From NCBI GenBank assembly GCA_030141605.1, contig JAQGDQ010000233.1, positions 186,001 through 250,000 of the forward strand: DNA of 64,000 nucleotides. Reading direction: 5' to 3'. Below are positions 7,263-61,250 of this stretch, piece after piece (positions within the stretch are counted from its first letter, which is position 1; each line of letters begins with the position of its first letter). The notes below the pieces were generated by a model. It saw only the letters and a list, made by a program, of their open reading frames with translations. It was not told the origin of the DNA and made no database searches. Position numbers and translations under genes: made by a program. Source of the DNA: Tubiluchus corallicola. Taxonomy: Eukaryota; Priapulida; Priapulimorpha; Priapulimorphida; Tubiluchidae.

Positions 7263-7662
7263 ATAAATAAACTGGATTACTATATGAGGGGTAAAAAGTT
7301 CTGGTATATCGTTTACAAACTCTTTCGTGAACTTTCGCGTCTTTCCTTGCCTTTTTATTAAAAAAATAATTTAATATTTTTTAGATACTCGCATAATTAC
7401 ATCATTAGATGCCTCATTTCAGTCACCTATAATACTGAAACTATTAGCTGCTATCTGAATTCTTCGAAACTTCTAATGTGTGGCCAATGAAAGCTGATGA
7501 TAGTTGCACGTTCAGAAAGTGAGAAACCTGGAATTCTTTAGTCTTTAGCGAGTTACTACATTTGTTGTGCTGTTTTTTCACCTGTTTCTATTTCCTTAAC
7601 ATTTCGTCACTTTTTCTCCTGTTTCTATTTTCCTTAACATTACCGTTTTTTTTTCTTTTCAG

Positions 7663-22100: not shown

Positions 22101-23664
22101 GACTTGGCGGCACGTAGTGCCCTAATAAGGTCCTACTGATCATAACACTCCCGGTAAACCTACTGGTAATAAGGTCATCTATAACGTATTAACATATACA
22201 TATTTACCACCAGACCAGCATTCATCATGGCAAATGGCATTGCTAATATGCCACTGCCAATGTTTCCCTTCAGCAAATGCATCATAGTCTGCAAATTTCT
22301 GCAAATACAAAGTTGAGCATTTATATATATTAAAAGGAGTTTGGCAATAAACATACTACAACTTTAATATCACGTAAGTGTGTCAAATTTGTGGAAAACA
22401 TGGGCATTAAATTGATGAATAGCAACAGTCATTTGTTCTTTGCACAGTTTATTCCTTAGAATATTTTTCATCCTAGTTTGGAAATTGATGCAAAACAAAC
22501 TTATACTTTCTACAGCACTAAGTATTTTCAAGAAACACGAGTTGAATGAACCTCGTGAAGATTTGGTGCACTTTTGCTATATCTAATATGCTAACTTCTA
22601 TTGCACACTTGTGGCTAAGTACAATATTATATTTCTATTCTACATGACTAAGCAAACAGTGTTAATTTCAACTGTAAATACCATGGTCAAAGATTAAGAG
22701 CCATGTATTAGCCATTTGAATCTGCATTTATAAAAGAAAAAAATAGGCGTAATTTCCTTAGCAGCTTATTAGTTTATTCTGTAATGGATAGAAATTGTCA
22801 TTAGAAACACTTTATACAAATAGAAAGTGCAACAAACGTGAATGCAGATTTTACCTACGAGCAAAGTTTGCATGTGCTTAATCTTACTAGTGATACCACT
22901 AAGTCACTGACCTCCATTCGTACATCATAGTCATTAATGGCTCATTAACAATCAATCAATGATATCGTATGTTGACAAGGGTTTAATTATTTACATAAAC
23001 AATAATATAAATTAAGAAAAACAAAATACATTGAAAACACAATGAAAGTCTGTAAAGTTTTAGAAAAGAAAAGAAAACACATTCAAATGTATTAAAACAC
23101 ACACATACTGCCATTATCTTAGCATTATCTAAAATCTAAATCCAGCATGGCACATATTGAATAATATATGACTTTCATGAATTAATCACTTGTGCTTGCA
23201 TCATTTGAGAATGCCGGTTCAAATCAGGAGATGTATATAGGCCTATTGTAACAACTTTTCACAACTTCTTATCATTCAGACTTGGAAAGTGGATTTAAGG
23301 CCAATTTGACTACGCATCTAATAAAAATTTAAAACAGCACAAGTTTAACATGAAACTTTGCAAAAATCAACTACATGTATTATTTAGGATGCTTGTATTA
23401 TTAGTAGTTTACATTAAATTGTCAAAAGGAAATAACATACGTTGTGGCATGTTCCATGTTTGCTTCAGCTCTTGCTTCAGACAGACTTGTCCGAGATGAC
23501 TCTGACCTCCGCAGTGTAGGCTGTGCTGCCTTCTGCTGCACGATGTTCCGTTGCACAGCTTCAAATATGGCCACATCACTCTCACTGGCTTCAGATTCAG
23601 AGACAGAATCATAACTGGCCCCAATACCAACCAGTGGCTTCTTCTCTTCAGGATCTTTCACCAT
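13163..23664 (-). CDS. SLC36: SLC36-type proton-coupled amino acid transporter (PAT), ten coding exons, 481 aa
   Basis: Multi-pass transporter of the amino-acid/auxin permease superfamily; SLC36 members co-transport H+ and small amino acids at plasma or lysosomal membranes. Minus-strand exons: 23664-23441, 22298-22208, 20819-20731, 20583-20491, 19606-19522, 18017-17835, 17207-17109, 16585-16410, 14373-14201, 13395-13163. They total 1,446 nt, every junction keeps frame, and the final codon is TAA. Landmarks: a Ser/Glu-rich cytosolic N-terminus (1-75); MHLLKGNIGSGILAMP at about 80-95 (TM1); IHCMHILV; TATQLGFCCVYFVF in exon 5; RNLKFMAPFSAFANLLT in exon 6; FFGTAIYAFEGIGVILPVEN across exons 7-8; GSITLNLP; ITYVLQFYVAIEI in exon 9; LISLVGAAASSTLAL-like C-terminal helices in exon 10. 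Length and order match the family. ATG 23664 is preceded by a splice acceptor only about 21 nt upstream. Which SLC36A paralogue it corresponds to cannot be told. Confidence 0.96.
14374..16409 (-). other. Intron 8 of SLC36 with an unexplained ORF and a GC-rich patch
   Basis: 2,036-bp intron. It contains a 143-codon minus-strand open frame (14964-14533) with no family I recognise, ending in a Lys-rich stretch. It also has a markedly GC-rich patch at about 15055-15125 within otherwise AT-rich DNA, and a short duplicated AACGTCTATAATATA at about 15246-15280. These look like transposon remains, but I cannot assign them. Confidence 0.45.
18018..19521 (-). other. Intron 5 of SLC36 with dispersed repeat remnants
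   Basis: It contains a degenerate repeat at about 18915-19105 that recurs at about 29770-29940. Next to it at 19240-19346 is a stretch with AAACAAACTAACAAAC followed by AAAACATAAC and CTTGGTGGAGGTAA. From memory, that arrangement recurs in repeat families of many marine invertebrates. Confidence 0.5.
18915..19105. repeat. Dispersed repeat, copy 1 (related copy at 29770-29940)
   Basis: Both copies share the order TTATAC..TTCCAAG.GAGAATT, CTAACTTGT/AATAACTTGT, TCTTATAGCC/TCTTGTAGCC, CTTTCCA, ATA.CTCTCTC and AGACC. They are strongly diverged, so old. Confidence 0.6.
21131..21210 (+). repeat. Dispersed repeat family R3, copy 1
   Basis: CTAGCTACGTAAGTCTTTCA, then AGCAGGTAGGCATAATG, then AGTAATATAACTTTG and ATGGAAA. 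The same order occurs at 39390-39490 and 63121-63210. Confidence 0.75.
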
Positions 23665-23684
23665 CGTAACACTAGAAAACTACA

Positions 23685-26400: not shown

Positions 26401-26462
26401 AAAATAGCACCTGGTGAAATGGTTAAACTGTTGCTAAAAAAAGTTGAGAAGTACGGAAAATA

Positions 26463-27552
26463 TAACTCGAAGTCTTAATTTCGAGATTTTTGGTGCAGGA
26501 AAACACAACAAGGAAACCAACTTGTCCAAAAAAGGGAAATTTGTGGACAATAGATTGCAAATCAACATTAAATGCTCTTTCTAATGGTAAGCAAAGTAAA
26601 CTGAGTAGGTAAAAAAAGAAATGCAAAAAAGTGAACATTGATTTGAACCAGGGTCCAAGGAACCTTTCGGAATACAATTAAGCAGTATATGTAATGTTAA
26701 TCTGTCCCAGCACTATTTTGACATTTCATGTCTGTTGGTCAAGTTTGATTTCAAATTCAACAATAATTGTGAATTTACTTTTTCTTTAATAATAATCTTG
26801 GAATTACTCAACTTTTAGTGAATTATTAATGAATTTAATTTACACTTAATAGAAAAACTTATTAGAAATAATAGAGTTAGCTCAAGTACAAGAATTTCAA
26901 CTTGAATGGAAGTAAGGAAAATAGTAGTTATAAATTATAGTTAGTTTAGCAAAAATTTACACTACTTCTAGCATATCATTGATCAACAAAGATATATACT
27001 ATACTGAGATATTAATTTTTCCTTATATTTACTGATAAGATAATAAATTGATTTGTTTTTAGGTGCTTGAGGAATAGAGTTCCAGATGTGTAAAGTTCTA
27101 GGTTCTCCAAATTTGGCTATCTTATCATTCTTATGTTAAAGAAAATTATTACTGATTAATACAGCAATAGACCAATAAATAACTTGAAATCTTAATTTCG
27201 AGATTCTTAATGCAGGAAAACACAATAAGGAAGCCAAACTTGTCCAAAAGGGGAAATTTCTGGACAATAAATTACAAATTGCCAATCAAAATTAAATGCT
27301 CTTTCTCATGGCAAGCAAAACAAACTGAGTAGGTGAAAAAAGAAATCCAAAAAAGTGAACCTCGTTTTGAACCAGAGTCCAGGAACCTTTTGGAATACAA
27401 TTAAGCAGTATATGTAATGCTAATCTGTCCCAGCACTATCTTGACATTTCATGTCTGTTGGTCAAGTTTGATTTCAAATTCAACAATAATTGTGAATTTA
27501 CTTTTTCTTTAATAATAATCTTGGAATTATTCAATTTTCAGTGAATAATTAT
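26463..27552 (+). repeat. Direct duplication: 26463-26830 and 27179-27552
   Basis: Two direct copies about 716 bp apart share CTTAATTTCGAGATT, GCAGGAAAACACAA, AAATGCTCTTTCT, ACTGAGTAGGT, AAGCAGTATATGTAATG and a nearly identical 3' half (CTGTCCCAGCACTAT onward). Differences are mostly single bases and small indels. No coding capacity was recognised. The sequence between the copies (26831-27178) is unrelated AT-rich DNA. Confidence 0.9.
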
Positions 27553-28622
27553 TGACGACGAAGTTGCTATTAATTTTTGAATTGAATACTAGTTGTCCGT
27601 AGGTTTTTTTATAATTCTTCAAGTTATTGTCATTTTAAGGAATTGCTTCTGAGATTTATATTAACATTATTTGCACTTTTCACTTAAATGTTGATCATGC
27701 TGGATTTCTGGATATAACGCAACGCTTCATCACACCAATACGACAGTTTGCTTTTGCAATAATGTGATTCACACTAAGTCTTGAGGTAAGTTGGTGAGCC
27801 TAATCACCAAGTCATGAATGCAACTTTGTTCATATGTTTGTACATAATTTAGAAAATAAGGGGTTGCAACTTTAGGGCGTTTTCTTACAAAAGCACATTT
27901 ACTTGGTTTGAGTCATCATTCATTTGCTGCACTAGTCTAAAAATCAAGTTGATAGAGGTCATGTTATAAAATGTAATGATCAAGATCGTTCAGTATAGGA
28001 CGAAAGAGCTTTGGGCCAGCAACAAAATATGATGAAATGTTATGATGAAATTTGCTCGTCTCTTGAGAAACAATATGAGGGTCACTCATTGTACTTTGGG
28101 AGATATATCTATATGCCACTTGCATGGGCATCGTTCATCATCTCCTATCATCAGCACCATCTTAAACGTTTAAGGTCCAACGTTTCCTAAATAATATTAC
28201 TTACCTGTATTACTACTACAGTTAAAGAGTTTTGTGTTTTGTTAGTACAGTACATTGTTCAATAAACTGCGCTACTTATGGTACCACATGTTGGCATCCT
28301 TGGAATTTCTAAAAATTCAAAATATAAGCTGAAATTCCTTAAATTTGCAAGTGGCAATCGAAAATTTTATAACAACCGTAAAACATGTAAAACACAATAT
28401 TTTTTGTGTTGCCTGTAAGAAATGCCAACATAGGACTATGTTATTCTACAATACCGTCATCTAGATGGTAGTCTATATTCTAGTTTATTGGAAGAAATGC
28501 ACAATGCTTACGTCTATGAGTTGTTGATTAAACCATTTTGCAATCAAGAAAATACGCAGTTTAGTTTAATTTATGGCCTTGCAAGTTAGATAAAAACAAC
28601 TATTTGATTAACTTTAAATAAT

Positions 28623-29351
28623 GACAAAACGAAATATTTTCTTTTGTTGTTAGTTTTTATAAACCTCAATGAGATCTTCACAGTCAAAATTAATTCAAAT
28701 GTGGTCAAAACTTATACTATACATCAATGTAATAGTGGTGCATTTTAAGCTATTTTTCTGGTTATAATCACGGTTCAAAAATAACATTAGGACTTCTGTA
28801 ACTCGGGCATTCAATATAAGGGTCGTCTATGGAACGGAACAATCAAATTTATTCCATTTCCGTAGCCTAACAAAGGAAAAATGCAAAAACTGAATAAATC
28901 TTGCAGACGAGCGCAAGATAAATTAATATAGAAAATACACATTGCAGGCATGATGTTCATATGTTCAAAGACAAGAGAGACTTAATATTTTTGTTGCTCA
29001 TTTATTGTAAAGCAAGGCTAACTGGCTTAATTTCTTTATTATATTTATGTCTCTGTATTCTGTAGCGCTTTGAAACTTCGTCTCTAAAAATACATTCTGT
29101 TTAAATTGAAAAATCATCTTTTGGCTGCTTGAAGCGTTAATTTCGTGTAAAAATATCCGCTGGTCTGCAAATTTGTGTTTATGAAAAAGTGCAATCAGTT
29201 TATCTGCTAATTAGACATTAGTTGAGACTGTCATGTTGTTTCGTTTTGTTTAGTTTAGTTTAGACAGTTGTTGTCCAGCTTGAGCTGATGTCCCGAATGC
29301 CACTGGGCGTGCTTACGCCACAGCGGAGGCGGAGCGATAGACCAATATGCT
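28623..29351 (+). repeat. Left arm of a long inverted repeat
   Basis: This roughly 0.73-kb arm is the reverse complement of 34464-35165 with scattered substitutions and a few indels. Shared landmarks include CGGAGGCGGAGCGATA at the inner end, TTTGTTTAGTTTAG, AGTGCAATCAG, TTAATTTCGTGTAAAAATA, ATTGTAAAGCAA.GCTAACTGGCTTA, and TTTTATAAACCTCAATGAGATCTTCAC near the outer end (broken here where longer than needed). It could be a transposon terminal repeat or one of two oppositely inserted copies of an element. Confidence 0.85.
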
Positions 29352-30108
29352 AGACATCAATTCTGGCAAAAGCAAGGCCTGCGAATACAGTGACAAAGAC
29401 AATTGCAATGCCAACAACTGCAATGGCAATGGCAGTAGCAGCTAGAAACTGCTATGACAATGGTGGCAACACTTACAGAATTGGTCGAAGAGGCGAAATT
29501 GATATAATCATATATTAATATATACATAGAAAAAGCACAAAACGATGGTAAACACTAAACAGGCAAACATGCAAAAATATACCTGTACACAGACTAGCAA
29601 AATACTCACACCATTAAGCAGAATTATAATCAACATTAATGCATGGACATTTTACCAAGCGTTTTTCTGCATTTCTTTAACCATTTGGCCACAAAATAAT
29701 AAACGTATGTAAACAAACGTTTGTCAGCTTGCAAGGCTACATAAATAGTATCAGGTTAGGTTGTAGACAGCATTATACAGGTTTCCAAGCGAGAATTTCA
29801 CGAAATGGAACGTAAAACTAACTTGTGGTTGTTTGACCTAGTGGAAATAATAAAAAAGAATTAACTTATCTTATAGCCAAGTCCTCCTCTTTCCAGATAG
29901 CTATAACACTCTCTCTGAGACCTCCACGGGTGTTTCGTGTATGCTTTAGCGTGTTTGGCTCGATTTAATTTTGCGAAAAATTTACCGTGTAATTTTCACC
30001 GTGCACCATTAGTAGACTATAGCAGGATATTGCATTTAAGCCAAAAACAGTTTTTCGTCAATTTCGACATTCAGTTTTTCTTACAGTTTTCTCAGATGGC
30101 TCTAGGTT

Positions 30109-34027: not shown

Positions 34028-34463
34028 TTCAGGCTAGGTATACATGTAAAGCTGCAGGTGAAAACAAAAAGTTTAATAAAACTTTTTTTCTTTCCAAACC
34101 TAGTCTAAAAAATTTGTAATACTAGCAGATGAGCTGGGGAAGGATTCAAAGCAAAAATGCTAAGCTAACACATTAGCGCATGATAAATGTATCTGAGCAC
34201 TTACAAGCAAAATGGCTTACAAATAAAATGGCTCTTAACATGGTTGTTTTTATGCATATTAGGGTGCACAAAAGCGATGAAAAGATAACATAAAAATAGT
34301 AAAAACTCTCATCACACATAAGTGTTTTACCTTAAGTATGTGAAACAGAAATTTTGAGTCGATTATGTAGAGTTATTTGAGTTATTCAATTACTGACAGT
34401 TTTTATATACATTTGAATAAGAGCAGCCTTTCCCAGACGTTGTTGTGTCAATTGGCGTCAAAC

Positions 34464-35165
34464 ACATTGGTATATCGCTCCGCCTCCGCTGTAACGTAAG
34501 CACACTCAGCGGCATTCAAGACAACAGCTCACGCTGGACACCAACTGTGTAAACTAAACTAGACAACATGACAGTCACAGTTAATGTCCAATCAGCAGAT
34601 AAGCTGATTGCACTTTTCATAAATATAAATTTGCAGAGCAGCAGCTATTTTTACACGAAATTAACACTTCAAGTAACCAAAAAATGACTTACTTTTCAAT
34701 TTAAGCAGAATGTAGAGACATAAGTATAATAAAGAAACTAAGCCAGTTAGCATTGCTTTACAATAAATGGGCAACAAAATATATTTATGAAAGTCTCTTT
34801 TGCCTTTGAATATATGAACACATCATATCTGCAATGTAGTTTTTCTAATTTTAATTAATCATGTTATCGTTCTAAAGCTTTTATCCACTTTTTGCATTTT
34901 TTAAACTGCTTGCTAGACTACAGAAATGGAATAAATTTGATTATTTGATTCCATAAACAATATTGCCCATGTTAGGTAAGTCATAAGTCCCAATGGCATC
35001 TCTTAATTGTGATTATAGCCAGGAAAATAGCATAAAATTTACTATTTCAGGATACAAATTTTACGTTGATATATAACATAAATTTTGACCACATTTGGAT
35101 TAATTTGGACAGTGAAGATCTTATTGAGCTTTATAAAAACTGACAAGAAAAGAAAACATTTTGTC
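34464..35165 (-). repeat. Right arm of the long inverted repeat
   Basis: Inverted partner of 28623-29351. It starts at the inner side with ATTGGTATATCGCTCCGCC and ends near ACATTTTGTC. About 5.1 kb separates the arms. Confidence 0.85.
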
Positions 35166-36901
35166 TGAATATGAATTTCTATGAGTGTGCTTGCTTACCA
35201 CATAATCCTGACAGTTGTCATGTATTCCCGTAGATGAGTTCAACTCTGCCGCTGGTCTTTAACTATTGCTAACTGGTCATTCCTACAACCTGCGCAAACC
35301 TAGTTGCTGTAATTTTTACATGCTGGTTATCCTTGAATCATTTATACCTGCCAACTCGGGCTTCAATATAAAGTTATAAATTTCATTGTTACTTCTGTTC
35401 AAGTCGGCCATTTTACATTTGCGATCATTAAAGCAGCATCATATGATTGGCCTAATTAATCTCGTTAAGTTAATTTGTATTTTTTAATGTTAATACTTGT
35501 CTTTATCTAGCTTGCAAGGTCGTACATTAAACTTAACTGCATATTTTTATTAATAACAAAGTCAGTACCTCATAGACGCAAGCGCTGTGCATTTCTTCCT
35601 ATAAAAAACTAATTTATACTATATATTTCCACTACTTCACCTACAATATTAATCGACAATACAGACAATTGACAACCTATAATAAGATTTAAAACCAGGC
35701 TGATTTCTCTCCTCTCCTGCACATTTATGAACATTTGAGCATTTTTCGTACGAATGTAACATATACCGACAATACCAAGTTAGAGCTGTTGTCCCAAAAG
35801 ACGAGGTAATGAACCGGTTCTGTGGGCATGTGAAAAATAGGCACACTGATTGGACAGTCAGCAGAGCTTGACTGAGAATGATTGACATTTTGTTTGACTT
35901 CAATTAGGCGACCGATTCTGTTAATCGTGAGTCTAATAAACAGCACCCACAAACAAAGGTCTCAATGAGGTAAATTGAAAGGTATAAGTTATGCCTTCAT
36001 TGGTTGACCCCTGTCCCCTCTAGGAATGAAAAAATTAATATTGGATGGGTCAGGGAGACAAATGCTTCTTCCAGTGTAAATGACAGTTAGCTTGTAGTAC
36101 ATATTAAATGAAAGGTATTGAAAAGACACATTTAATGGCGTTGTTGTCGTTGTTAGGCTGGGACCGGTTAAGGATTCACTTAACTGGTTAACCGATTAAT
36201 GAGATCTAGACATCATCGGAGACACTCTGTAATTTGCCGGCTAGATCATCGGAGAATCAAATAAACAAGCAATTTACAAAACATATCAAGTGAAGCTTTA
36301 GAGGAATAAGTTCAAATAAGTCGAAACTTTTATTCATAGAAAAAATTTCAAATCGCTAGTTTTTAGCTTGGGTTGCTAAAATTTACTCATGCCAAATGCA
36401 AACTAATTAAAGAAATTTTGATGAGCAAATTTGTGAAAACACCAAGTTAGCCATTAAAACTTTGCTGTTTAAGCAACATTCTTTCTTCCTGAGTTACCTG
36501 TGTAGAATTTTAGAAGTTAAAGATAATTTTCATTTGGTGACTTATTTTCACCTGATATTCAGCTTTTAAATATTTACTAATTTAAATTTAGATTTGAGAA
36601 TATTTTCAAGAACAATCTTGCATTTGAGAATATTTTTAATCAAAGTAACATCCTGAGAAGTGAGCCTTTTGTTATAGGGTGCGAGCAGTCTGTGTGTAAT
36701 GATTTTCTTTATTGAAATCATAGTACATGTAATTATGCATTGGAAAATTTGTTGCTCAAAAGATGAAAGTATGTCCATGATTTTACGTATATACGATATC
36801 TTGCTCAGAAAAACTTAGCAAAAGTGTCAGTTAGTCAGGACATGCAACTTCACTAGAAAACAAAGTGATATTAATTTAATTGTTATTTTCCATTACAACA
36901 G
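35166..36901 (+). other. Upstream flank of the VAMP gene; first exon not certain
   Basis: The recognised VAMP exon at 36902 starts one nucleotide before a codon, so the preceding exon must end in phase 2. A tiny exon ATGAG|GTAAAT at 35965-35969 would fit and give a very short first coding exon, as in vertebrate VAMP2, but its start context is poor and many such sites occur by chance. A hAT-like end (GGCTGGGACCGGTTAA, TTAACCGATTAATGAG) lies at about 36155-36203. Confidence 0.25.
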
Positions 36902-39900
36902 GGCTGACTCACAAGGCAATAAGAGACTTCAGCAGACACAAGCTCAGGTTGATGAGGTATGACAAATGCATAGTGACATAGTATTGATCATATGTAATTA
37001 AATTTTCGTTGCAGTGCAAAAGTTTACTGTACAATAGTGCTCTTATTTTTAGTTTGACTTATTTTAGGATGAAGAGTAATGGTCACTCTATTACTTTGCT
37101 ACTTTGTTCTTAATGACTGAGAACGACAATAACTATTTTGCCTAACAAGGCTACAGTTTTTATTTTGTAACATACAGTTGATTTTGTGCTGAAAGTTGTT
37201 CATGTCAGACATTTTTCAAATTTTAAGGTTACTGGAATTATGCGAGTGAATATTGAAAAAGTCATTGAGCGTGATGAGAAACTTTCTAGTTTGGACGAAA
37301 GAGCAGGTATTATAATTAGGCTCTAAATGTAAGAGTTGATCTACTGGAGCAGGTGCAGTTGTCGTAAAATCTTTAGATGTGCTAACACCTTGTCTGATGT
37401 AGAACAGTGTCCTATGTGAAACGTCATATATCAAGATCATTACTTTGTGTAGTGATCAAGACTAATGATCAAGAATTAGTTTCACATTAATATGACACTA
37501 CCATTTTTCTGCTTCTACCTCTCTTTACCCTACATGTGGTCTGTTTTTTTTTTTGCATGTTTTTCTGTCAAACTAGGTGGTTGATATAATGCGTGTTAAT
37601 GTGGAAAAAGTTCTTGAACGAGATGACAAGCTTGGACAATTGGATGAAAGAGCAGGTAGAACTAACCAACCTTTGGTTACTATACCTATGATTTGTAGTT
37701 TATGTTTATCTTTCATATACCAGACTATGTGGATATGCCCTTGTTAAGTTAACCTTATTTGTTATGCACTGAGTATGACATCATCTGCAATTTGTACCCA
37801 ATTCATGGCTGTTTTTAGTTAGTTAACATATGTTTGCTTGCTTGTTTGTTTGTTCACTATTTTTGTTTGCTAACATTGTTTTTAATGAGCTGAAATAAAC
37901 TAACGAGGCTTGTGAAAGAACTTATTTTGTGTCTATTTACTGTGATGTTTAAAAAGCTACTAACATATAGGTTTGCCTCAATTATGCACATGGAAATGTC
38001 TATATTTCTAGTTCCTGGTACTAACAGTAATGTCTAAGTGTCATAAGAAGATTAATTGGTAACAGTCATTTTCTGTTAAAGCCATTGAAAACTGTATTTG
38101 CATTGAAATTTGCATTAATAATCTTTTTTTAAGTTGAAAATGTTTAAATTATCCCTGAAAGAACAACAATTTAAAACCATAGCTCAAAATGACCCACCAT
38201 TTAAAATGTTTTAAGTTCAAATATCACTTTAAACATAGTTTTATTGATAACAGAGATTACAATATGGCTTGAGCAGACAGTTTTACAACTGATAGATTTT
38301 CTTGGCAATGGTATGTGACACTTTAAAGAGTGCAGACAATAAATGAACAGTTGGAGCATTATAGTACAACAAGTGCAAATATTGTTTTCTTAAGATTGAT
38401 AGCCTTCATTACAGTTCTCTTGCTCAGGAACTTCTGCATGGTCCCTCGCTTCCCCACTCATGAGATGAGAATATTTTCACCATGGGATTATTTTAAAAAA
38501 ATCAATGCTTAAACATTAAAAAATGCAGTGAAACTAGGATTGGCCTCACAAACTTGTGAAAAATACTTCGTCTAGAAACACACCAACATTTCAGCATACA
38601 ATTGATAATTATTTAGGTGGTAGGCCATACAGTTTGTAGACATGAATATATATACTTATTAATCAACACACAAATTTTAGAAAATTTCTCTGCGTAGAAT
38701 TGATATAGAATTGCCATGAAGTCAATGATGTTCAGGATGTCATTTCCATAAATGCATGCAGATGGCAAGTTAGTTTTCATGATAAGCAGTGTGTTGCTAT
38801 TTCCAGTTGTGTTATTATAATTAATGGCAGCTACCTGCACTTTTTGTTTATATATAATAGTGTTTAAATTTGCTTGGGTTATGAGAAGAGTATGTGCGCT
38901 ACAGGTAGTATCATAAATATTTGCCAAGTACATGCATTACAATGCCAAAACAAGTAAGAATGTGGCAAAGCTGTCTGTAAGGTACAAGCAAATCAGTAAT
39001 TTATTACTCTGCTCAGAATCTTCAAAAATTTTTTTAATAATATGGCAACGTGAGGCCTCCAAAATTGTAAGGCTCTGAGCAACAACCCAGTGTTCCTATG
39101 TCTTAAAGCAGCCTTGAAGGCATTTTTAATGGTAAGTTCAAATCACACTGTCCACGCTAAGAAAACCTTCCACTTACATAAAGCTTTAAAAATTTGGCTT
39201 TAGATTTTATACCACTTGTATACTGCCTTTTTGCATACTGGACTTGCGTTGGCAGTACGGCTGTATAAAACATGTAAATTTAAACTCCCACAATGACCGT
39301 GTTAGACGTTTTTTCGTTAGTGAGTGGTGCACAGTGGAGGGTGAGTCAACGACATTTTACCAATATTTGAATCATTTTGAATAATTAATAATTTTCTTTC
39401 CTAGTTACATAAGTCATTCGAGCAGGTAAGCAAAATGCTAAGTAATATAACTTTGCATGGAAAGTTTTTTGGGACATGGTTTAACATTTCCTTCGCCAGG
39501 TTTACGTTGTGCGTATATGACGTCATATAACAGTGCGGTCGGCACAGTGTCACATGAAACTTAAATCGGAAACAAACAAAAAATCCTTTCAACTCGAGCA
39601 CGATATACGCATAAAATTGCTAGAAAGTAGTATAATTGTCAGGCAATTTTTCTGAAACCTATTTTAAGTACCCCTTTTCTTGTCCTTTAAGATGGCCTTG
39701 TTCTTGCCAGAAGTCTGATTCTTTTGGTTTTTCAGGGTTACATAAATAGATTAAAGACATGCACACTCAGCTGGGCAACTTCTCCTGTTTCTCCATTGGG
39801 CATTGTGTAAAAAATAAGCATTGTACCGCATTAGAAGAGGATGGATAACTACACATCCCAATTTTGAAGATAACTTCATGAAATCTTGTGTTAGCCCATC

Positions 39901-42900
39901 AGTATTGGAACTTGAAATTTCAGTTTGTCATATTAAGCGGTTTTAGCAATAAATTAAAATAAATTGTGGTCTAAAAATCATCTGGCTTTCTTTAAATGTA
40001 GAGCCTTATTGCCTAGTGATTTCAATTAAATTCATTGCTGACATGTAACCAATTTCTCTATTTTAATACAGCACATACTTGTGTTTTCAGATGCATTACA
40101 AGCAGGAGCTCAACAGTTTGAAGCAAGTGCAGGAAAACTGAAAAGGAAGTACTGGTGGAAAAATTGTAAGGTGAGCGAATTCAATTTTTGGATACTGTAG
40201 TTAATTAAATTATAATGACCTGTAACAAGATGCTTTAATGCAGTCTGGCATCATCATCAGTGTATTTTCACAAGGCAGCTAGAAGTATATATTAAACTAT
40301 ATCTCGTGAATACTGCTATCCTGTTAATAGGCCAAAATTAACCACTAAATGGATAATGCTAGTCGCATGATGACAATTGACAACCAAAAAAAATTTAGCT
40401 CTATTTTTTGGGCTGTTATGCTATGAATTACTAGATTTATATAGTGGTTATATAGAGCCTGTTAGCAAGATGGTAGTGCTTATTAGATTATAATATAATA
40501 TTTATTTCTAACTGGCTTATAATTGTTGGATTATTAAGGCATGGATTCCCCAACTACAAATCAAATCTGTAGTAAGGGTGTTACATCTCTAGACTATGCA
40601 GATAAAACTCAAACTCAACAAACGTCTGTATCATCTATGTCAACAATGGCATGAGTTGCGTACTGAGGTCGCTTCTTGCCTGTAAAACTGATTTTTGTAT
40701 GATATGAAAGAAAAAGAAAATTGTATTGTTATGAAACCTCATTTTTAACAAAAGTGTAGCAAGTCCTAATTAGAAATTTTAGTAGCTTACGCCAGCAGTT
40801 GACAAATAAAAAAGTTTTTATTGTCTTTATTTTTGCAGTTATTGTGCCATTTCATAAATGGACAAATTCTATCAAAATTAGAATGCACACAGTCTATAAT
40901 ATCAGGCCAGAGTATTGTGTACAATATCGTATGCCAAATTTAATTTCTGAGTGCCTGATAATTGATAACCATAGATTGCATGCTTCTTTAGACTAAATTA
41001 CCTTCTGAGTTTGCCTGAGAATTCTAGTATTCCTAATTTCTCTTAACTCTCAGTGTAATCAAGTTTCTTTTTGACATGTGCACATGTAATGTAGGTGTAT
41101 TGTTTCAGCAAGGTTGATTTATGACATAAATTTTGCTATCACGTGCTATAATATTTATAATGCCTAGTGTGTACACTCAGTTATCAGTATTTGTGCACTC
41201 ATGAGTACGCTGTTTGTGCGACATGTGCACAAGTTTTCACAACTTCAGTGTTCGTACCTCATTGAGGATGGTGATAATTAAGTGATAATTACCATTGATT
41301 CATACATCATTGTCTATATAGTAGTAGACTTGGTGGACTTGTGTAACGATGGTTTTGCTTTGTGATAATGGGCGGGTGGTTCATAACATGGAGAGGGGGC
41401 AGATAATGCAAAAAGAAATGTCAAAAACGAGTTTTATAATGAGGCGTGACAGCAGTTCGTTATTTGATAATAATTCTGTGACATATTTGCATGAAGCTAG
41501 CATTAATGAAAAAGATACTTCTCTTCGAAAAGCCTCGGTAAGTCAAAATACACAATAATAGACTACATATAAAAGTAATTTTTTACATCAGGGATGTCTT
41601 ATTAAACACATTTTGCTCATTTAAATTATTTTTCTTTTATAAATATTGCACATTTACTGCAGCCTGGTAAGCCAACCAGTTATGTGATCTTACCTAGATA
41701 ATTCTTCAGCTGATTTTCTGCGCCATATTGACTAGGAAGTTGACTAGGTGACTAAAAATTCACCCAAGTGATGGTTTGAATGGGAAAGAAAAGATATGTG
41801 GAGATTAGTCAGAGCAGTAGTAAGGGAACAAGAGAGAATGCAGCAAATGATTTGGCAAGGAAAGGGAGCACAACAAAATGCGGACAGAAAGGAAAAGAAT
41901 GTACGAGAGAGGAATATGGTTGTAAGACTGTGAGTGATTGGAAAGTAGCCCTACTGATTTAAAGTTTTTTAATTTACCACATGTTAACTTGCACATAGAA
42001 TATTGGCTCTCCTACTAACTACTTAAAATCGATGAGCACAAACTCACAAAGAGCACGGTAAAACAAGTTATGTAGAAATAATAAGTACTAAGTATTTTAT
42101 TTTAATATTTTAAGTGTTTTTGAGTTTTTGTTAGCTGTTAGCAGTCATGTAAGGAACAGTTAACAACTGGAAAGTTTAAAAACCATTAAACTGAGTTTCT
42201 CAATGTTTAAATAAAAACTTATATCAAATGATTATGAGGTTATACAACTACAATTAAACTGCAGATCTCGTTGCATGGCACCGATAAGCTGCATTAATCT
42301 ATGTAATGTTTATTCAGTATTTGTGTTTACATTACCGCGTTCCATTTTCTTAATAGTATACTCATAAACAAGTTAGATAGGCTTTGGAAGAATAACTTGG
42401 TCATAGTGCATCTGATTAGGGATACCTTGATTTTACTTAGAATACACAGGCATACACTTTTACTTGTTTAATACTCTGTATACACAGACACATTTTAAAC
42501 TATACTGTTTTAATAATAACTACTCAAAAGGCACATAGCTGCATGTTTACTATTTTGTTATATTATAAAATCATTTGTTATAACTGAAAGAAATCCATTC
42601 CGTTTGCTGGACTTTTAGTCCAAAAACGCGAATTACAATAAATTCTGCACACACAGGCAAAACATGCAATTAAATACATTTGTTATGGCTGTAGTACCGA
42701 TGTAACTCATACAGTACATTTAACTAGAGCTTAAATAAGGTGCTGATTGTTCTTCGTTACATCATTAGATGATTTAGAGAGAGAAATTTGTTCATGAAAT
42801 CAGGATATAGCATACTTTTTCATTTCTAGGCACTTTTAGACAAAATGTATTTGGCCTGGTTTCTACACCCGTTGAATTATAATAAAAAATCTTTCAATCT

Positions 42901-44812
42901 ACATAGTAAGTCAATGTCAAATGCATAATATTAATTGCATTTTTGAATAAATGTTACCATTGTAAAAAAACTGTAATGCCCTTATTTTGACTTAATGAGC
43001 AAGTGCACATTTGGAGAATAATGGCTTCTTCATAGTTTCAGTTCAGTAATTTTTGTGACCTTTTATACTTTCAAAGTAGCTAAGATGACCTTTACATCCT
43101 TGTACTACATGAAGCATGATTAATTTTTATAGATTGTTATGTATATTTTCGTCATTTATTCTGCTACTCTAAATATCTATTGTAGACATTGAGCCTCCAT
43201 CTATTGGCTATTTAGGATGTTTTGGTACCTCATTTAATGCTAATGTTACTGATGTTTTTTCTGGCAATCTGGTTAAATGCCCTACTCATCTTTGCCTTCT
43301 GATTTTAATTTTGTGCTCCAAAAGTTCCTTTTTGCAGCTGCCCATTTGAAATAACATACAGCCATCTTACTTACAAGATTTTTTTAGCAAACTTCTGTGG
43401 AATACATCTATTTCTGCTTCATGCATTGCAGTTAAACCCCACATTTCACTGTTGTGCTTGAAGATGCTTATATATTGAAGAGGTCACAGCCTTGCTTGAG
43501 GGATAGTTTTATGCCATATTATGTATATAGAATATTAAATATTAATTTTCACTTTTTGCAGATGATTGCCATATTGGTAGGAGTTGTCGTCGTGATAGTT
43601 GTCATCATTATCGGTAAGAATTTTTAGTATTTCTCTATTCCTGTGTACTATCTTGCGTCACTATGTTGCTTCAGTGCTTATGCTTCTCTGAGGCTAATCA
43701 CCAGCTTCCCACAGCTTTTGTTAATACATGGATGGGTGAGGTTTGTGGTATTTTGTAGATGCCACTTTTTGCTGATTTGCACAAAAAATATGCTATACCA
43801 TAGTAAATGTGTCAGGTATGAATTTCAATCCCAAATTACTCCATCTATGCACTGTGTGTGTGTTTCAGCCATATCTCTTACTGTTTCTATGGAGCTATGT
43901 TTCTGCTTTTCTGTGTAGTGACCCTGACGCTAGGTCACTGACTCTAGGTTACTAATCGTTTAGCAGTAACACAAGAGCGACAGTTGCTCAAAATTGTTAT
44001 TGTAGTTTTAAAATTATCTTAACTTTGCATGTAAATGTAAAATGGCAAAAACCTTAAAAATGATCAAGATGTTATTTATTAGAAAATAAGTTCACTTGAG
44101 TTTTATAACTGATGCAAATGGTTAAGAAAGAAGGTTGAGAAATTGTAAATGAAGAAGGGTGTAATTTTTGACATACTCCTTCGTGTGAACTCTAGTAGAT
44201 TGGCTACTAAGACTAGGGCAAATGAGCAAAGGTTCAATAATTATATCCTTATGATCAACCAAAACATCCAGTGCATGTTAATGTTTTTGCTGATTGTGAT
44301 AACAAAGCATCTAGCATCTCCATGTTTTTTCATGGGAAAGCAAAGCGGGCAATAATCAAATTTATTTTTGCAATGCTTTTCTTTTTTGTTGCTTATTCGC
44401 ATAATAATTCCCATAGCACAAACGACATAAAAGGATACGCTAACTGTGGTAACCACCTTGGCTAGCTGAGGAACAGAAGCCGGATGCCAGATGCTCAAAA
44501 ATGTTGGGCTTCCACTGTCCAGTGCCATAATCTTTGATATCAACACTCATTGATAATATAAAAGTTCTATTTCTCACTTAAACATCCAGGACGTGGGCAC
44601 CAGATGCTAGACCCTGGGTGATTTGGTGCATCTTAGGCTTAAATTGGATATAGGTTTGCTAGATTTCAAGATGCTTCCTGTTCTCCCTGAAGCAAATATG
44701 CTGTTAAGTCTAATCATTATGAGTTTCATGCATTTCTTTGATAGGTGTGTTTCTTCCTTATTATTATATTTTGTTTTTAGTGTGGACTGTAACTAAGCAA
44801 AAGGAGGAGTAA
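36902..44812 (+). CDS. VAMP: Synaptobrevin/VAMP (R-SNARE of the VAMP1/2/3 class), duplicated SNARE exon; extreme 5' exon unplaced
   Basis: Vesicle R-SNARE that forms the four-helix fusion complex with syntaxin and SNAP-25 and is held by a C-terminal membrane anchor. Exons: 36902-36956 ([13 protein letters not shown], start of the SNARE motif); then 37228-37306 or 37577-37655 (alternative 79-nt exons with MRVN and ERD, which supplies the zero-layer Arg); 40091-40170 ([20 protein letters not shown] then YWWKNCK, end of the SNARE motif, basic linker and a Cys next to the membrane); 43562-43613 (hydrophobic anchor rich in Val/Ile); 44781-44812 (end of the anchor, TKQKEE, TAA). Phases agree throughout with either duplicate exon. 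About 99 residues are visible against about 116 in VAMP2; the missing part is the variable N-terminus. AATAAA at 45033 and 46469 suggests two 3' UTR lengths. It converges with the LPP-like gene. Confidence 0.95.
37228..37306 (+). CDS. VAMP: VAMP alternative SNARE exon A
   Basis: Flanked by TTTTAAG acceptor and G|GTATTA donor; starts in phase 0 and ends in phase 1. It encodes [16 protein letters not shown] then [10 protein letters not shown]. Compared with exon B, seven of 26 residues differ, including Val-to-Thr at the position matching hydrophobic layer -4 and Asp-to-Gly next to it. MRVN, the ERD arginine, and LDERA are kept. At nucleotide level 23 of 79 bases differ, and nine codons differ only silently, which points to an old duplicate under purifying selection. 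Confidence 0.9.
37577..37655 (+). CDS. VAMP: VAMP alternative SNARE exon B (canonical-like)
   Basis: Flanked by AAACTAG acceptor and G|GTAGAA donor; same length (79 nt) and same phases as exon A, 270 nt downstream of it. It encodes [16 protein letters not shown] then [10 protein letters not shown], closest to the usual VAMP2-type sequence. Using both exons, or neither, would shift the frame into the 40091 exon. Confidence 0.95.
39390..39490 (+). repeat. Dispersed repeat family R3, copy 2
   Basis: Inside the VAMP intron 37656-40090: CTAGTTACATAAGTCATTCG, AGCAGGTAAGCAAAATGCTA, AGTAATATAACTTTGCATGG, then TTTTTTGGGACAT, which the 63-kb copy shares as TTTTTGGGGACAT. Confidence 0.75.
41349..41537 (+). 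CDS. Candidate first exon (63 codons) inside a VAMP intron
   Basis: An ATG in strong context (AACGATGG), with an in-frame TAG 24 nt upstream, opens 63 codons. They end exactly at a consensus donor: GCC TCG|GTAAGT. The peptide starts [17 protein letters not shown] and is rich in Ser, Arg and Asn; I recognise no domain. It ends in phase 0, and the next VAMP exon (43562, the membrane anchor) also begins in phase 0. Splicing would therefore give a tail-anchored protein of about 90 aa lacking the SNARE motif. Alternatively it is the first exon of a nested gene, or a chance ORF. A TATATA lies about 35 nt upstream of the ATG. Base composition is less AT-rich than around it. Confidence 0.35.
43625..44760 (+). 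other. Last VAMP intron, no recognisable gene
   Basis: It contains a short GC-richer stretch (about 44450-44640) and a 101-codon minus-strand open frame (44546-44241) with no motif I recognise, probably repeat-derived. Confidence 0.4.
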
Positions 44813-49400: not shown

Positions 49401-50063
49401 CTTATAACTTTAATTCAGTAAAAACTGCTGCTCGCTTTGCGTTATAAATGAGGACTATGTAGGATGTTCACAATTACAAGTTTACTTATATGCAAATTTT
49501 TTTGCAGGGCCTTTGCTAGTAATTAATTAATGAGAAAGATAAATTTTCTGAGCTGTTTTCCAATCAATTGTCACAAAAACCTCACCATCTTTTTCTTTTC
49601 ACACATCATTGTACAGAAATTAATTTGCAGGGTTTTGAGATACGTTTCTGACTAACAGGTTCCTGCAAGTACGTAATGTTTTTTGCTAAATTTTAGTTGT
49701 GATAAAAAAATAAATGTGTAAGGAACTTGCTTTTGGGCAAGAATAAGAATTTGATTACTATCTAACTTATGATTAATATGCTTTAAACATTGTAACATGC
49801 AAGGATAGCCACCTGGGTTTGATAATCATATAAAAACTATAAGCTAAACTTGCACGTGCCTAAGTTTTGCCATTTTAGTAATGAACAAGTAAAAAATGTT
49901 GGTAAAGAAATGAGATAACAAATGTAAGCTATTCGTGAAAAACTGTAAGAGTCAACAATGCCAAGTAAGCTGACATACTTGTCTACATATACACATATTC
50001 CATTCTAGCTGTTGACTGTAACACAGCTAGACCATATGAAAACCCCACCCTGTAGTAATTAAT
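46500..50063. other. Interval between the convergent VAMP and LPP-like genes
   Basis: It should contain the LPP-like 3' UTR (minus strand), but no poly(A) signal stands out; candidates are TTTATT at 48641 and TTTAAT at 49409. A (TA)n tract at 48809-48827 is followed by a distinct GC-richer block to about 49390. Confidence 0.45.
48809..49390. repeat. Compositionally distinct block after a (TA)n tract
   Basis: After about 19 bp of TA repeats, the sequence is clearly less AT-rich than its surroundings for about 560 bp (for example TCGGGCCCACTGGGAGGAAC). It is open for 76 codons in one plus-strand frame without an ATG. No protein family is recognised. It resembles an inserted repeat rather than a host exon. 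Confidence 0.45.
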
Positions 50064-53000
50064 TTACAGTTCAGTACTCATCCTATTCGTAAGATCATTA
50101 ATTCGCGTAGCATTGCACTGTCTGCACAAGACATGATCGTCTAGGGGATAGCAACCACGTCCATCTGCCTGAGAAGACAGCAGTGTGCCACAGTCCTGTA
50201 ACAAAATTTTCATTTGACAAAAGAAAATTACAGTTTGTTACGTTATTAAATGTACTTGACATCACATGTCATACATTTGGAGAAAGACACCAAATGTGTT
50301 TGCATAAGCTGTATCACAAATTGTCCGCTCATTATGGTGTTACAACAGGTAACAGCATGACAAGACTGGCATTGATCTAGATTCATTTAAAAGTAAAGCT
50401 TTCGTAAATAACTGATAGGTTGGAAGTTTTTCACACAGGTAAAATAGTCGTATATTAGACTGCACACTCCCACCACAAAGGAATGGTCCTGCACTAATGT
50501 ATAACTCAAAATAACCATGTTTATAAACTAAAAGGCTAAGCTAAGTCAAATCAAATTAAACAAAAGTTCTAATAAATTAGACTATAATAAGCAGTATAAT
50601 TTATGGTGAATGCATTGAAAAACACGGAATGCATTTTACCTCACAACGATAACAATCCACATGGAAGCTCTTATCCAAGGCCACAATTCTAACTGTTTCC
50701 TCTTGTCCACTTTCAGGCATTATAGGCTGATGGCACATTGCACAGCGTGGAGCAAACTTCCTACATAACAAACCAAATTCTCCAATAGTTTCAAACTATG
50801 TATTACATAAATTGTGCTAGATTGCAGTTCTGCATTACGTAACTATGCAAAGAGGCAGTTTAACATGACAAAAAATGCTGCATAGTGTATATACACAGCA
50901 AAATACCTTAAGTAACGAATTCGGTCACAGTTAAGAAAATCTCTGAACAAGAAATCTTTTCGGGGAATAAAGTTGTTGTTTCATGTCATTGATGTCACCC
51001 TTGTCCTGGTTTCATTCTTCTTATAAATAAAGCAAGTCTAGTTTTGCATTTTTCAAGCAGCATTTATTTGCTGTACAAATTCCTTAGATTCTTAGAACAA
51101 ATTCATACCTGATCAAAAAGATGGTTAATTGACCATCTCATCATAACCTAATGTACTGAAATTTCATCAGGACATGTTTAACAGTTTTAAGACAATGTTC
51201 ATAAGAATATAACATTTTATTGTCACTGGTATTCAAGCAATCAGTGGCATACCACATCAATATGATATGAATGACGGCAAGATGAAAGACAGGAATGACT
51301 GGCAAATATACAAGTTATAAATGTCTGAAATAGCCATAATATAAGCAGCAAACAGACTTGTCAACAGTATCAATATGTCACTGTCCCCCATCGATTCATG
51401 ATAAAAGCAACGTTAGCCTCATAAAATATTTTTTTATACAGTTGCATTGTAAGCTGGACTCCAACATCAAGTGGCAGGGCCTCATGCTTGAACAGTTGTT
51501 ATGGAATTTGAATCTCAATAAATATCTTCCAGGCAGAGATCCTGAATTGGCAGGTGTCTTAATAACGCTGAGATGCATATATATCCTCCCTTAACAATAG
51601 AAATCATCAGTAGCAATATCCCTAAAGTCATCTATCCATTTACCAACCAGCGTCTAGCCTCCGTGCCCTTACCTTTCCTAGTTTCCTAATAACCACTCTG
51701 CTTGGTTATACAGCAAAACCATCACAATGGAATTAACGAGTGTCTTGCCTTATCATTTGTTAATGACAAACTTACAAAATTCTAACTGTTTATCAAATTC
51801 TAAAATGCTTACGTCCGTTTTATTTTTCTACTGGATGGGAAATGACTTTTGAAAAAAATACGTTGAAAAAAAATTTGAAGTTATTATTACTTACAGCAAT
51901 TAGACCTGATCACATCTGCATCATAAATCATTGTATAAGTCTGTTTAATTAGTTGCACAGAAAAACGGATAATGTATTTCACTAAATGCTTTAATCGAGT
52001 GCTCACATAATCACAACATTTCTGCAAGCGAAATCAATAAGCTAAATGCACATCCAAAAATTTTTGCTGATATACAATCAAATCTAGTTAAGATCTTACA
52101 TAAAATTTTCCAACTAGAGTTTTGATACCTATGAAAGTCTTCTATACAATGTATTTGATTAGTGGCATCTACAGTAAAGGGGATTCCGTCTAAACTCTTT
52201 CCACACACAACACACGTGAAACAGCTGGGATGGTATGGCTTGCCAGTGGCCCTCAAGATTCTGTCCATTATTGGCTTAGAACACACTGAGCACTTCTCCA
52301 ATGTATTCTGCAATAAAGATAATCTTTTCTAATATAAGATAATCATCGCAATGCAAAAGACAGTCTGGAAAACATGCAAGGAAGACAAACAAATATAAGT
52401 AATCAATAGGCTTTCTGTTTAGCTAATGACTTTGCGCAATAAGACTTTCATATTGACACTGTAGCCATTAATAGTAAATGTGTAACCACTAAATTGATTT
52501 CAATAAATAAAATCTACTATTTAAAATCACTAAGACGAACAGCATAAGTTTCACATCATGTTACAATATGCATTATAAAATTTATTCAACGCACAACTCA
52601 AACATATTCAGTGTGAATGAGTGATACTTTTCCAATAGCCCATATTCGAAAATCAAATAATAGTCCACTCACAAAATAATCCTCCTCACAGTATGGTTTT
52701 CCTTCCACTGCATAAAATGGAACACCTCTAAGTTGCCGTGCTGTAAGTATATAAAATTATGAACAATTCATGCTTTGGTGCTATTGCACGTACACATTCT
52801 AGGCAATTGCATCTTTTTTCACTTGAATTTAATATGTTAAGCTGCAGTATATGGATTATTTGAATTTTGCCATGCTGTATATGCTTTAGTAAGAAAAATA
52901 TACTTTCTCTTGCTTCTTGTGCTATTAGTAACATTATATAACACGCTTTACAAAAAATTGATCTAACTCATAAAATCGAATTATGAACAAGCATAACTCT

Positions 53001-56000
53001 TAAAACATATGAAAGATAAGCTTTAACTTAAAAATGTGCGTTAGTCTGACATGTAAGCAGTAATCAAGAGGCTAATAAAATAATAAATGAATTATATAAA
53101 ATAAAAGCATTTCACTTTGCCACTTCAGCGTCTCATATCAAAGGATTATCCAAGACACTGAGCTAATTTCCGGTCCCATTACAACAGCAGGTATAAAAGA
53201 GCACCCTTCTTAATGAGCATTTAATCACAGTGTGCAAAGTGTGAACTGAAAACAAAACAAAATAATTTCCTTGTAACTGTATGACACACATTTTACTATA
53301 GTTTAATAAGAGTACCAACGCACCACATATGCAACAAACAAAGCATTCAATGTGAAACATTTGATCCATTGCAGAACAGCCACCATCTCCAACTATCTGT
53401 TTCTGACATTTGGCACAAGAACCTGAAAAAAACCAATATAAGCCTACAGTCACATTATTTTATGAAACTGTGGCTTACTGTCAACTATTTTTATATGCAA
53501 CATCACTAAAGCAAATTATAAACAAGTGTTAGAATAAGTAGCACATCAATCCATATTTCCTTTATATACTATATGCAACTATACTACTGTATGCTACTAT
53601 GTGTAACTGCATTACAGGGTTGTTATTGAAACGAAAATTTCAAATCAATATTGCTAGCCATAAAGATGAAAACTGATTTTAAAACAGAAAGTGTCTTTTG
53701 AAAACTGATCAGCTACAACAAAAAATGAGAATTTTAAGAAAATTGTAGGCATTTTAAAAACGCTACATGACCTGTGTCAAAGCAAATTAGTACGGCAGCA
53801 CAAAGTAAACTGGTGCAACTTTGCAACTGTAAGCACTTAAATGATAAAATTGCAAATCTATGCAGTGACAGCATAAAAACACAAATTTTTAAGGAAACAA
53901 ATCAAATTACTGAGGCCACATTACAAGGACATAAAAGATGCTACCCACAGTTAAAACGTTTTTTATTTGATTGGGAAAGGATGTCGTCTCCTGTATCTGT
54001 TGACTGACTGTACAGTATACATAACAAGCATGCGAAGACGTGGTTGACGATTTTCAGTACCATCTACAATTATTTAAGCAAGACAATAAGACTCTCTTTT
54101 ATTAATATAAATTATGTAGACTCACATAGAATTAAATATAATATTAAGGAACTTTAGTTATTTTTTGGCAAGATATTTCTAATAACTATATGTTATTCTG
54201 TATTTTTTATGACAATAATCAGCCAAAAATTCAGACACCAATACATAGTAATTATCGAAAAACCCAAACCGAATTCGGTACCTTAAAGCAAAAGCCAAGT
54301 CTTTTGGGAAGTCAAGTTTATTTTAATATGTATGAAAAATGTTAGAAAATTTCAGCAGTAAAACTGTGATAAGCGCCTTGTGTAATCAACAAAATCAATT
54401 TAAAGCCATGATCACTTCAAGCTTGGGCGCGCTCATTTTGAATAAAAAATGATGTCATTTTGCTAACAGTGCAATATAAAAACACTTATCGCAGGCACTT
54501 GAGCAAACTTTTTTGCAGCAGCAGTTATTATTATCAACTATAAAGAATCCTAAACATTAAACAAGAGATTATTAATGCTGTTTTTGCTTTTTGATGAATT
54601 CCATTGCCCACTATGTAATGTAAACCAGTTACTGATGATAATATAATCTCCAATTAGGTTAGTTGAAGTCGACAAAGCAACAAAATAATTATTTTAACAA
54701 GCCAAAACTGAACTCTATAAGCTGAGTAGACCGCCTGGCACTTTTTGTGTGCTCACAGGCTCACAGACTATCATGCTTATCTGTAATTATAATATGTACA
54801 GTACTTATACATTTTAAGGTATAAACCTCTGGATTAAAGCTATGCTAGCACTTAAAAAGTTAATGCTAATTTTTCTGACGACTAATATATACATAAACAC
54901 AGTTAAACACAAAGATTTAATCAGGTAGTGTTACAGAAACACAGTGTTTACATAAACACAGTTAGAAAGATTTAGTCAGCTCAGAATTTCTGAGCGAACT
55001 GAAGAAGCTTTGTTACACGTGCCTTCGTGCTGTCCACCAGCTTACATCATTTTTTTTCAAATATGCCTGCACCGAGGTTCATTTGGTGGGAGATAAGAAT
55101 GATTAAAATTTCTTTTGCCTTTGTAAGCACAGCATTTTATGTGCCTATGTTACTTGGTAATTTCAATATTTTAAAACTTTTACGAACATTATTTGGCAAT
55201 TTGACCCAGATCGAGACAGGTTTGTCATGCTCATGCACCACATACTAATTTATCACATATTTCAGAAAGAATTTTCTGAAAACATACAAGTGTGTTTATT
55301 TGGACTCAGAATACCAAATTACATTATTATTTAGTAAAGTTCTATTTAGGAACAACAACAAAAACAACATTAAAGATATTGATTATTTACGCTTCTTATT
55401 TTTCAGAGCAGTATTGTACGTAAAATCTCGCCAACTTGCTGACAGTAATTTTGCTGAGAGTGAATTTTGCTGAGAAACAGCTCGCACTTACTGTGGGAGA
55501 GTAACTCGGAGCAAATTTTGCTCTCTAGCCCGAACATGCTTGCGAGTTACTTGGGAGTAACTTGGTGAGAAACTCGCAGCTGTGAATGCGTTGTTAGCCA
55601 TACCTCGAGGAAAGCTGGCAAATACATCCGGGTTGGCACGAGAATCCATACTCTGCACAAGCAAATTGGTCAAGGCATCTACTTCGGCCTCTGGCTTGCC
55701 TCCCTTTGGCATACTCGGAGACTGTGGTGGAGGAGAGCTTGCATAAGTAAGCTGCTGCTGTTGCTGAGAAGGAGATACATAAGGCTGTGGGTAACCCCTT
55801 TTTTTCACTGAATAAAAACAAAATTGATTAACAATTAGCCATTAAGTGTCATTATTAATTAAGCACTTTATGCACTTTCAGACTTCACAACTACGTTTTC
55901 AGTTCATTACAGTATGTCCTCATTTAACAACTGCCCTTTCTGACAGACAATGAAATTTTGTCAGCAAATTTCCTCACTTAGTAACGTATTAGAAGCTGGA

Positions 56001-61233: not shown

Positions 61234-61250
61234 TTTTCTATTTTTCTAAA
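61234..61250 (-). promoter_or_regulatory. Splice acceptor just upstream of the LPP-like start codon
   Basis: On the minus strand, CATTTTAG is followed by AAAAATAGAAAA and then the ATG at 61233. This leaves a leader of only 12 nt in this exon, meaning an upstream non-coding exon or a trans-splice site. Confidence 0.5.

Follow-up and report, generated by a model that had tools for sequence, protein, structure and literature searches.

The synaptobrevin gene of Tubiluchus corallicola carries, in the middle of its SNARE motif, two adjacent exons of 79 nt that encode alternative versions of the same 26 residues, and this pair is real and likely to have a functional role. Mutually exclusive use, with splicing predicted from the exon sequences, is the best reading of the pair, and a switch of sorting or of outer-face partners is favoured over changed zippering as its effect. 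By its sequence the gene is a synaptobrevin, a VAMP2/3-type R-SNARE, and within the window (the whole stretch of 64,000 nt that was analysed) it comprises the following features.

36902 to 36956, + strand: synaptobrevin exon 5' of the pair, 18 residues ending in QAQVDE, ending in phase 0; read from AG/GT boundaries, translation and Pfam
37228 to 37306, + strand: exon A, 79 nt, phase 0/1, 26 residues (42-67), with T43 and G44
37307 to 37576, + strand: intron between exons A and B, 270 nt
37554 to 37559, + strand: UGCAUG, 18-23 nt 5' of exon B, a candidate regulator
37577 to 37655, + strand: exon B, 79 nt, phase 0/1, 26 residues (42-67), with the canonical V43 and D44
40091 to 40170, + strand: common exon 3' of the pair, 27 residues, starting in phase 1
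43562 to 43613, + strand: transmembrane exon, 17 residues, hydrophobic
44781 to 44812, + strand: last coding exon with the stop, 10 residues

With either A alone or B alone, these exons give an open frame of 98 residues that runs from 36903 and closes with the stop at 44812, and the two isoforms are identical outside the 26-residue segment. Isoform A matches the Pfam Synaptobrevin family (PF00957) with 90.5 bits and isoform B with 87.5, against a curated cut-off of 26.4, and both exons retain R56, the zero-layer arginine. The single C-terminal anchor is found as the hydrophobic exon at 43562-43613, followed by a short tail and the stop; among eight hydrophobic stretches following an AG that were listed between 40171 and 46500, it is the only one that by eye resembles a synaptobrevin anchor. 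Within the window, tblastn with the exon gave strong matches at A and B only, all others having E >1, and neither a third copy of the exon (tblastn) nor a second anchor exon (hydrophobic-stretch listing) was recognised there. The first coding exon of the gene was looked for in the window and not identified, scans of the window for tRNAs and Rfam families returned no matches, and relatives sought in viral_contigs and genome_contigs yielded none that could be confirmed.

A large inverted repeat, possibly a fold-back element, lies 5' of the synaptobrevin exons, at 28484-29362 and 34450-35605; its matches of 773 and 146 nt show about 74% identity, and the spacer measures some 5 kb. A direct repeat at 26462-26832 and 27179-27555 is 89% identical over 379 nt. 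At 2903-5069, on the - strand, broken reverse-transcriptase-like frames of a non-LTR element were recognised by eye, and this region includes a direct repeat of 246 nt at 3444-3897. The window also holds a rhodopsin-type GPCR at 7638-9917 on the + strand (7tm_1 match for 7638-8072), which we take to resemble cholecystokinin receptors, and, on the - strand, amino-acid transporter exons at about 16400-23680 (one by Aa_trans, the others by eye) and a LIM-domain protein at about 50000-61250 (LIM for one exon) with proline-rich exons, zyxin-like by eye.

The two exons are identical at 56 of 79 nt and align in register across their splice sites (73% over 84 nt); they thus have the homology, equal length, shared phase and intact splice sites of a mutually exclusive pair, and all sites were read as GT-AG, those of A and B included. 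Splicing A and B together leads to a stop at codon 47 and omitting both to a stop at codon 35, so that frame arithmetic enforces an either/or choice. The first-pass annotation had described two 79-nt exons of phase 0/1 at these positions, of which the inclusion of both or neither breaks the frame, and both statements hold for the GT-AG exons encoding residues 42-67.

What controls the choice may lie partly in the splice sites, where the donors of A (4.3) and B (5.6) score lowest of the gene's five, the others ranging from 7.7 to 11.8 by a hand-entered matrix. The UGCAUG at 37554-37559 is the only + strand copy in 36900-38400, out of 23 in the window, and we take it to be an Rbfox-type motif; control of the Rbfox kind could then favour A by repressing B. 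RNA structure as the steering element was rejected, as intron folding lies within that of shuffled sequences (z -0.95 and -0.74); the inverted repeats found are short and imperfect. A U2/U12 mismatch was discarded on account of the uniform GT-AG sites, and steric exclusion because the 270-nt A-B intron is well above the donor-to-branch-point limit of 50 bp that is used in PMC5740500.

The residues at which A and B differ are 43, 44, 50, 54, 58, 61 and 62, with Val in B and Thr in A at 43, and Asp in B and Gly in A at 44; the substitutions at 50, 54 and 58 are conservative (I/V, I/L and E/D). All eight layer residues (42, 46, 49, 53, 56, 60, 63 and 67) are identical, and seven changes would avoid all eight layer positions by chance with P about 0.05; by their heptad spacing, the changed residues would face outward. 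For this count we assume VAMP2 residue numbering and the placing of N49 and V53 in layers. PMC4744192 treats V39/V42, M46, R56, L60 (+1), L63 (+2) and A67 as layer residues, and as that list runs from -5, it follows that V42 is layer -4. A change of Val to Thr in layer -4, which had been read from the sequence at first, is therefore an error: the substitution is at 43, Val42 is kept in both exons, and a core-layer change was rejected. Since no core-layer residue differs, the two isoforms should have identical partners in zippering. The initial proposal of an either/or core swap that tunes fusion thus survives in the first of its parts, mutually exclusive use, which the frames and the arthropod pairs described below support; the part concerning kinetics is not supported as worded, as no layer residue changes.

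Positions 43 and 44 fall in a stretch of synaptobrevin that has been connected with endocytic sorting. In PMC3267021, a VAMP2 V43A/M46A double mutant is not taken up from the surface, the pair of VAMP8 residues equivalent to Val43/Met46 is key for binding to CALM, and of the two proteins VAMP8, where Lys takes the place of residue 43, is the tighter CALM binder, so altering residue 43 need not weaken binding. A review (PMC5649181) names M46 and D44 as targeting determinants and has C. elegans synaptobrevin depend on the AP180 homologue Unc11; with this a figure legend of PMC3267021 conflicts, which gives no binding of the AP180 ANTH domain to VAMP2, 3 or 8. The link of 43 and 44 with CALM/AP180-type sorting favours a switch of sorting or of outer-face partners over altered zippering. 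In C. elegans, where we assume the residue to be G44, the dependence on Unc11, together with the G44 of Ditylenchus, means that G44 cannot abolish sorting and tunes it at most.

Taken together, these observations suggest a model to which we give about an even chance of being correct. A tandem exon duplication in the synaptobrevin gene would have produced two mutually exclusive exons, transcripts with both or neither of which would meet an early stop and presumably be lost by mRNA decay. As the core layers are kept in both isoforms, the same partners should be zippered, and the swap would alter the outer face, foremost at residues 43 and 44. The cell would then pick, by cell type or stage, either the canonical B or an A whose adaptor-mediated sorting or recycling is predicted to be altered, and the changes at 50, 54, 58, 61 and 62 may tune other outer-face partners too.

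A second core at the same place occurs in at least ten arthropod species among the matches listed, which were the best 120 of 1448, all 18, and the best 120 of 3756 in our protein searches. Seven gene models among these matches contain two cores (Larinioides, Argiope, Trichonephila clavipes, Caerostris, Ephemera, Orchesella and Armadillidium), and in all seven a core of the G44 type is followed by one of the D44 type, between QVDE and DALQQ as in the window; position, boundaries and order match the window pair in 7/7. The residues that separate the cores (GE, ACLSQ and VFLFPQ among them, others being longer) resemble read-through of a splice site or of an intron, which would fit two exons separated by an intron. 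In each of T. clavipes, T. clavata and Nephila pilipes, two proteins on contigs of equal listed length differ only inside the exon, and there at 44, 48 and 55 only; the two proteins of the tick Ornithodoros differ at 43, 44, 45, 48 and 62 as well as in the transmembrane segment. Residue 44 differs in all ten species (G, or E in the tick, against D), as does residue 48, which does not differ in the window pair, and in none of the ten is a core-layer residue changed. The two types are not clean, as eight arthropod proteins from six species (Oppia, Dermatophagoides, Sarcoptes, Rhagoletis, Folsomia and Athalia) combine G44 with T48; proteins with one core exist for both types among the arthropod database proteins. 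The presence of paired isoforms at the same place strengthens the mutually exclusive reading. Not counted as pairs were those of Limulus (P0048/P0122, contigs unequal in size), Tachypleus (P0015/P0160, differing N-termini) and Haemaphysalis (P0057/P0106, both G44). Also excluded were six long models resembling joined whole genes (Ditylenchus P0143 and P0145, Rotaria P0171 and P0221, Neoechinorhynchus P0161, Diploptera P0159).

Isoforms from the same species also differ in the transmembrane segment in Ornithodoros (P0168/P0217), Haemaphysalis (P0057/P0106) and the chiton Liolophura (P0013/P0021), with MIAIMVG or MWAILIG in ticks and MWAILIA or MMLILGG in Liolophura, a pattern suggestive of a further alternative exon set in protostomes.

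Whether the arthropod and priapulid pairs share one origin was judged from proteins grouped by hand from species names, 53 further proteins being left ungrouped (27 with VD, 25 with VG and 1 with VN cores). Among the matches listed, V43 D44 with one core is found in 33/33 mollusc, annelid, nemertean and brachiopod proteins, which represent fewer species (27 mollusc proteins come from 18), and also in two proteins from priapulids and one each from a nematomorph and a tardigrade; G44 is found in a flatworm fragment, in 3 of 76 vertebrate proteins and in the first core of both Ditylenchus proteins. The common exon of the window contains AG and FEASAG, and AG with FEASAG or FEANAG is shared, among the matches listed, by all 33 proteins of those four phyla and by one from a flatworm, by none of the 50 ecdysozoans classified and by none of 3 rotifer/acanthocephalan proteins. 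By these marks the exon looks like that of a lophotrochozoan-like spiralian. Against such a likeness, the window's anchor begins with MIAI, a start also seen in priapulid and in several chelicerate proteins, and when proteins were ranked pairwise against isoform B, one from Priapulus came second after a gastropod's. A weak pointer to common descent of the pairs comes from tblastn, in which an A-type spider peptide scores 44.3 bits against exon A and 41.2 against B, and a B-type spider peptide 42.7 bits against exon B and 39.7 against A. An origin of the pair on two occasions is somewhat favoured over an ancient pair that was often lost, as judged from best-ranked matches only and with D/G at 44 variable. 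The broader proposition, that the same either/or exon evolved independently at least twice, in arthropods and in this lineage, each time altering the 43/44 sorting signal with the core intact, we regard as doubtful; if true, it would make alternative splicing a switch of vesicle-protein recycling and not of fusion.

That exon A might be a decaying leftover of the exon duplication is suggested by its departure from the commoner V43 D44, the form in the 33 proteins of the four phyla above. The frame of A is open, its splice sites are intact and its layer residues are retained. Between A and B, seven residues are changed and nine other codons carry silent differences only, as had been counted at first, and the Nei-Gojobori method gives dN 0.224 and dS 1.564. 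When all 23 nucleotide differences were placed on one copy in neutral simulations, none of 20,000 runs ended with seven or fewer changed residues and no stop. Under the most lenient split, with the silent changes all on the other copy, 7.3% of simulations were as conserved as this, a figure that speaks for the relic, and in 1.1% the eight layer residues were all retained and no stop arose. Neutral drift in a single copy does not readily account for the observed pattern. Together with the Pfam scores, of which that of A is at least that of B, these values support the earlier view that both copies seem selected; by sequence A is not a relic, and we consider decay very improbable. A role of exon A mainly in dosage, as a poison exon whose inclusion with B lowers synaptobrevin, would draw on the stop at codon 47 and on the weak donors of both exons, yet a poison exon would need no protein-level constraint such as A has, and arthropod database proteins with an A-type core only exist; we hold it to be improbable.

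The remaining alternative accepts the pair as real and has residues 50-62 tune SNARE assembly or the interaction with Munc18, complexin or SNAP/NSF instead of adaptor sorting. Five of the seven changes (50, 54, 58, 61 and 62) do sit outside the 43-46 signal, and PMC2581893 offers a precedent in SNAP-25 exon 5, with SNARE complexes described as less stable in SNAP-25b-deficient mice. Against this, residues 50, 54 and 58 carry conservative substitutions, the layer residues are all unchanged, and residue 44 is the only difference common to the window pair and all ten arthropod pairs. We therefore think tuning of assembly unlikely, if less so than the two readings of exon A as relic or poison exon, and prefer a switch of sorting or of outer-face partners.

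In neurotransmitter release, synaptobrevin acts as the SNARE on the vesicle side, and on the partner side SNAP-25 exon 5 is a known splice switch. A splice switch within the R-SNARE motif, with the core spared, would provide a natural protein pair for separating the sorting from the fusion role, and through the arthropod pairs the idea could be tested in more tractable species. Mutually exclusive exons are already known as a kind and have been catalogued in Kassiopeia, in the human MXE landscape and in human tandem duplicated exon substitutions; what is unusual here is the target, the R-SNARE motif. No synaptobrevin exon pair was found in the literature by title or abstract start, a search that lay outside supplements and most subscription journals, and VAMP or synaptobrevin has 0 mentions in the main texts of the exon catalogues PMC3923563, PMC5740500 and PMC9741552. 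The window pair is like those collected by Kassiopeia, whose criteria (PMC3923563) are similar length, homology, splice sites and the same frame. The n-syb gene of Drosophila is a synaptobrevin gene that is also alternatively spliced, but, as described in PMC6025963, it is the C-terminus that is changed and not the SNARE motif. The arthropod synaptobrevin/VAMP3-like pairs share with the window pair the segment boundaries, the kept layer residues and, in the seven two-core models, the order of A type before B type; residue 48 is unchanged in the window pair, and differences other than that at 44 are not common to all. Exons 5a and 5b of SNAP-25 (PMC2581893) are likewise tandem duplicated, mutually exclusive exons in a SNARE of regulated exocytosis. 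There the protein is a vertebrate Q-SNARE and nine residues differ, whereas here it is an invertebrate R-SNARE in which seven differ, none of them in a core layer.
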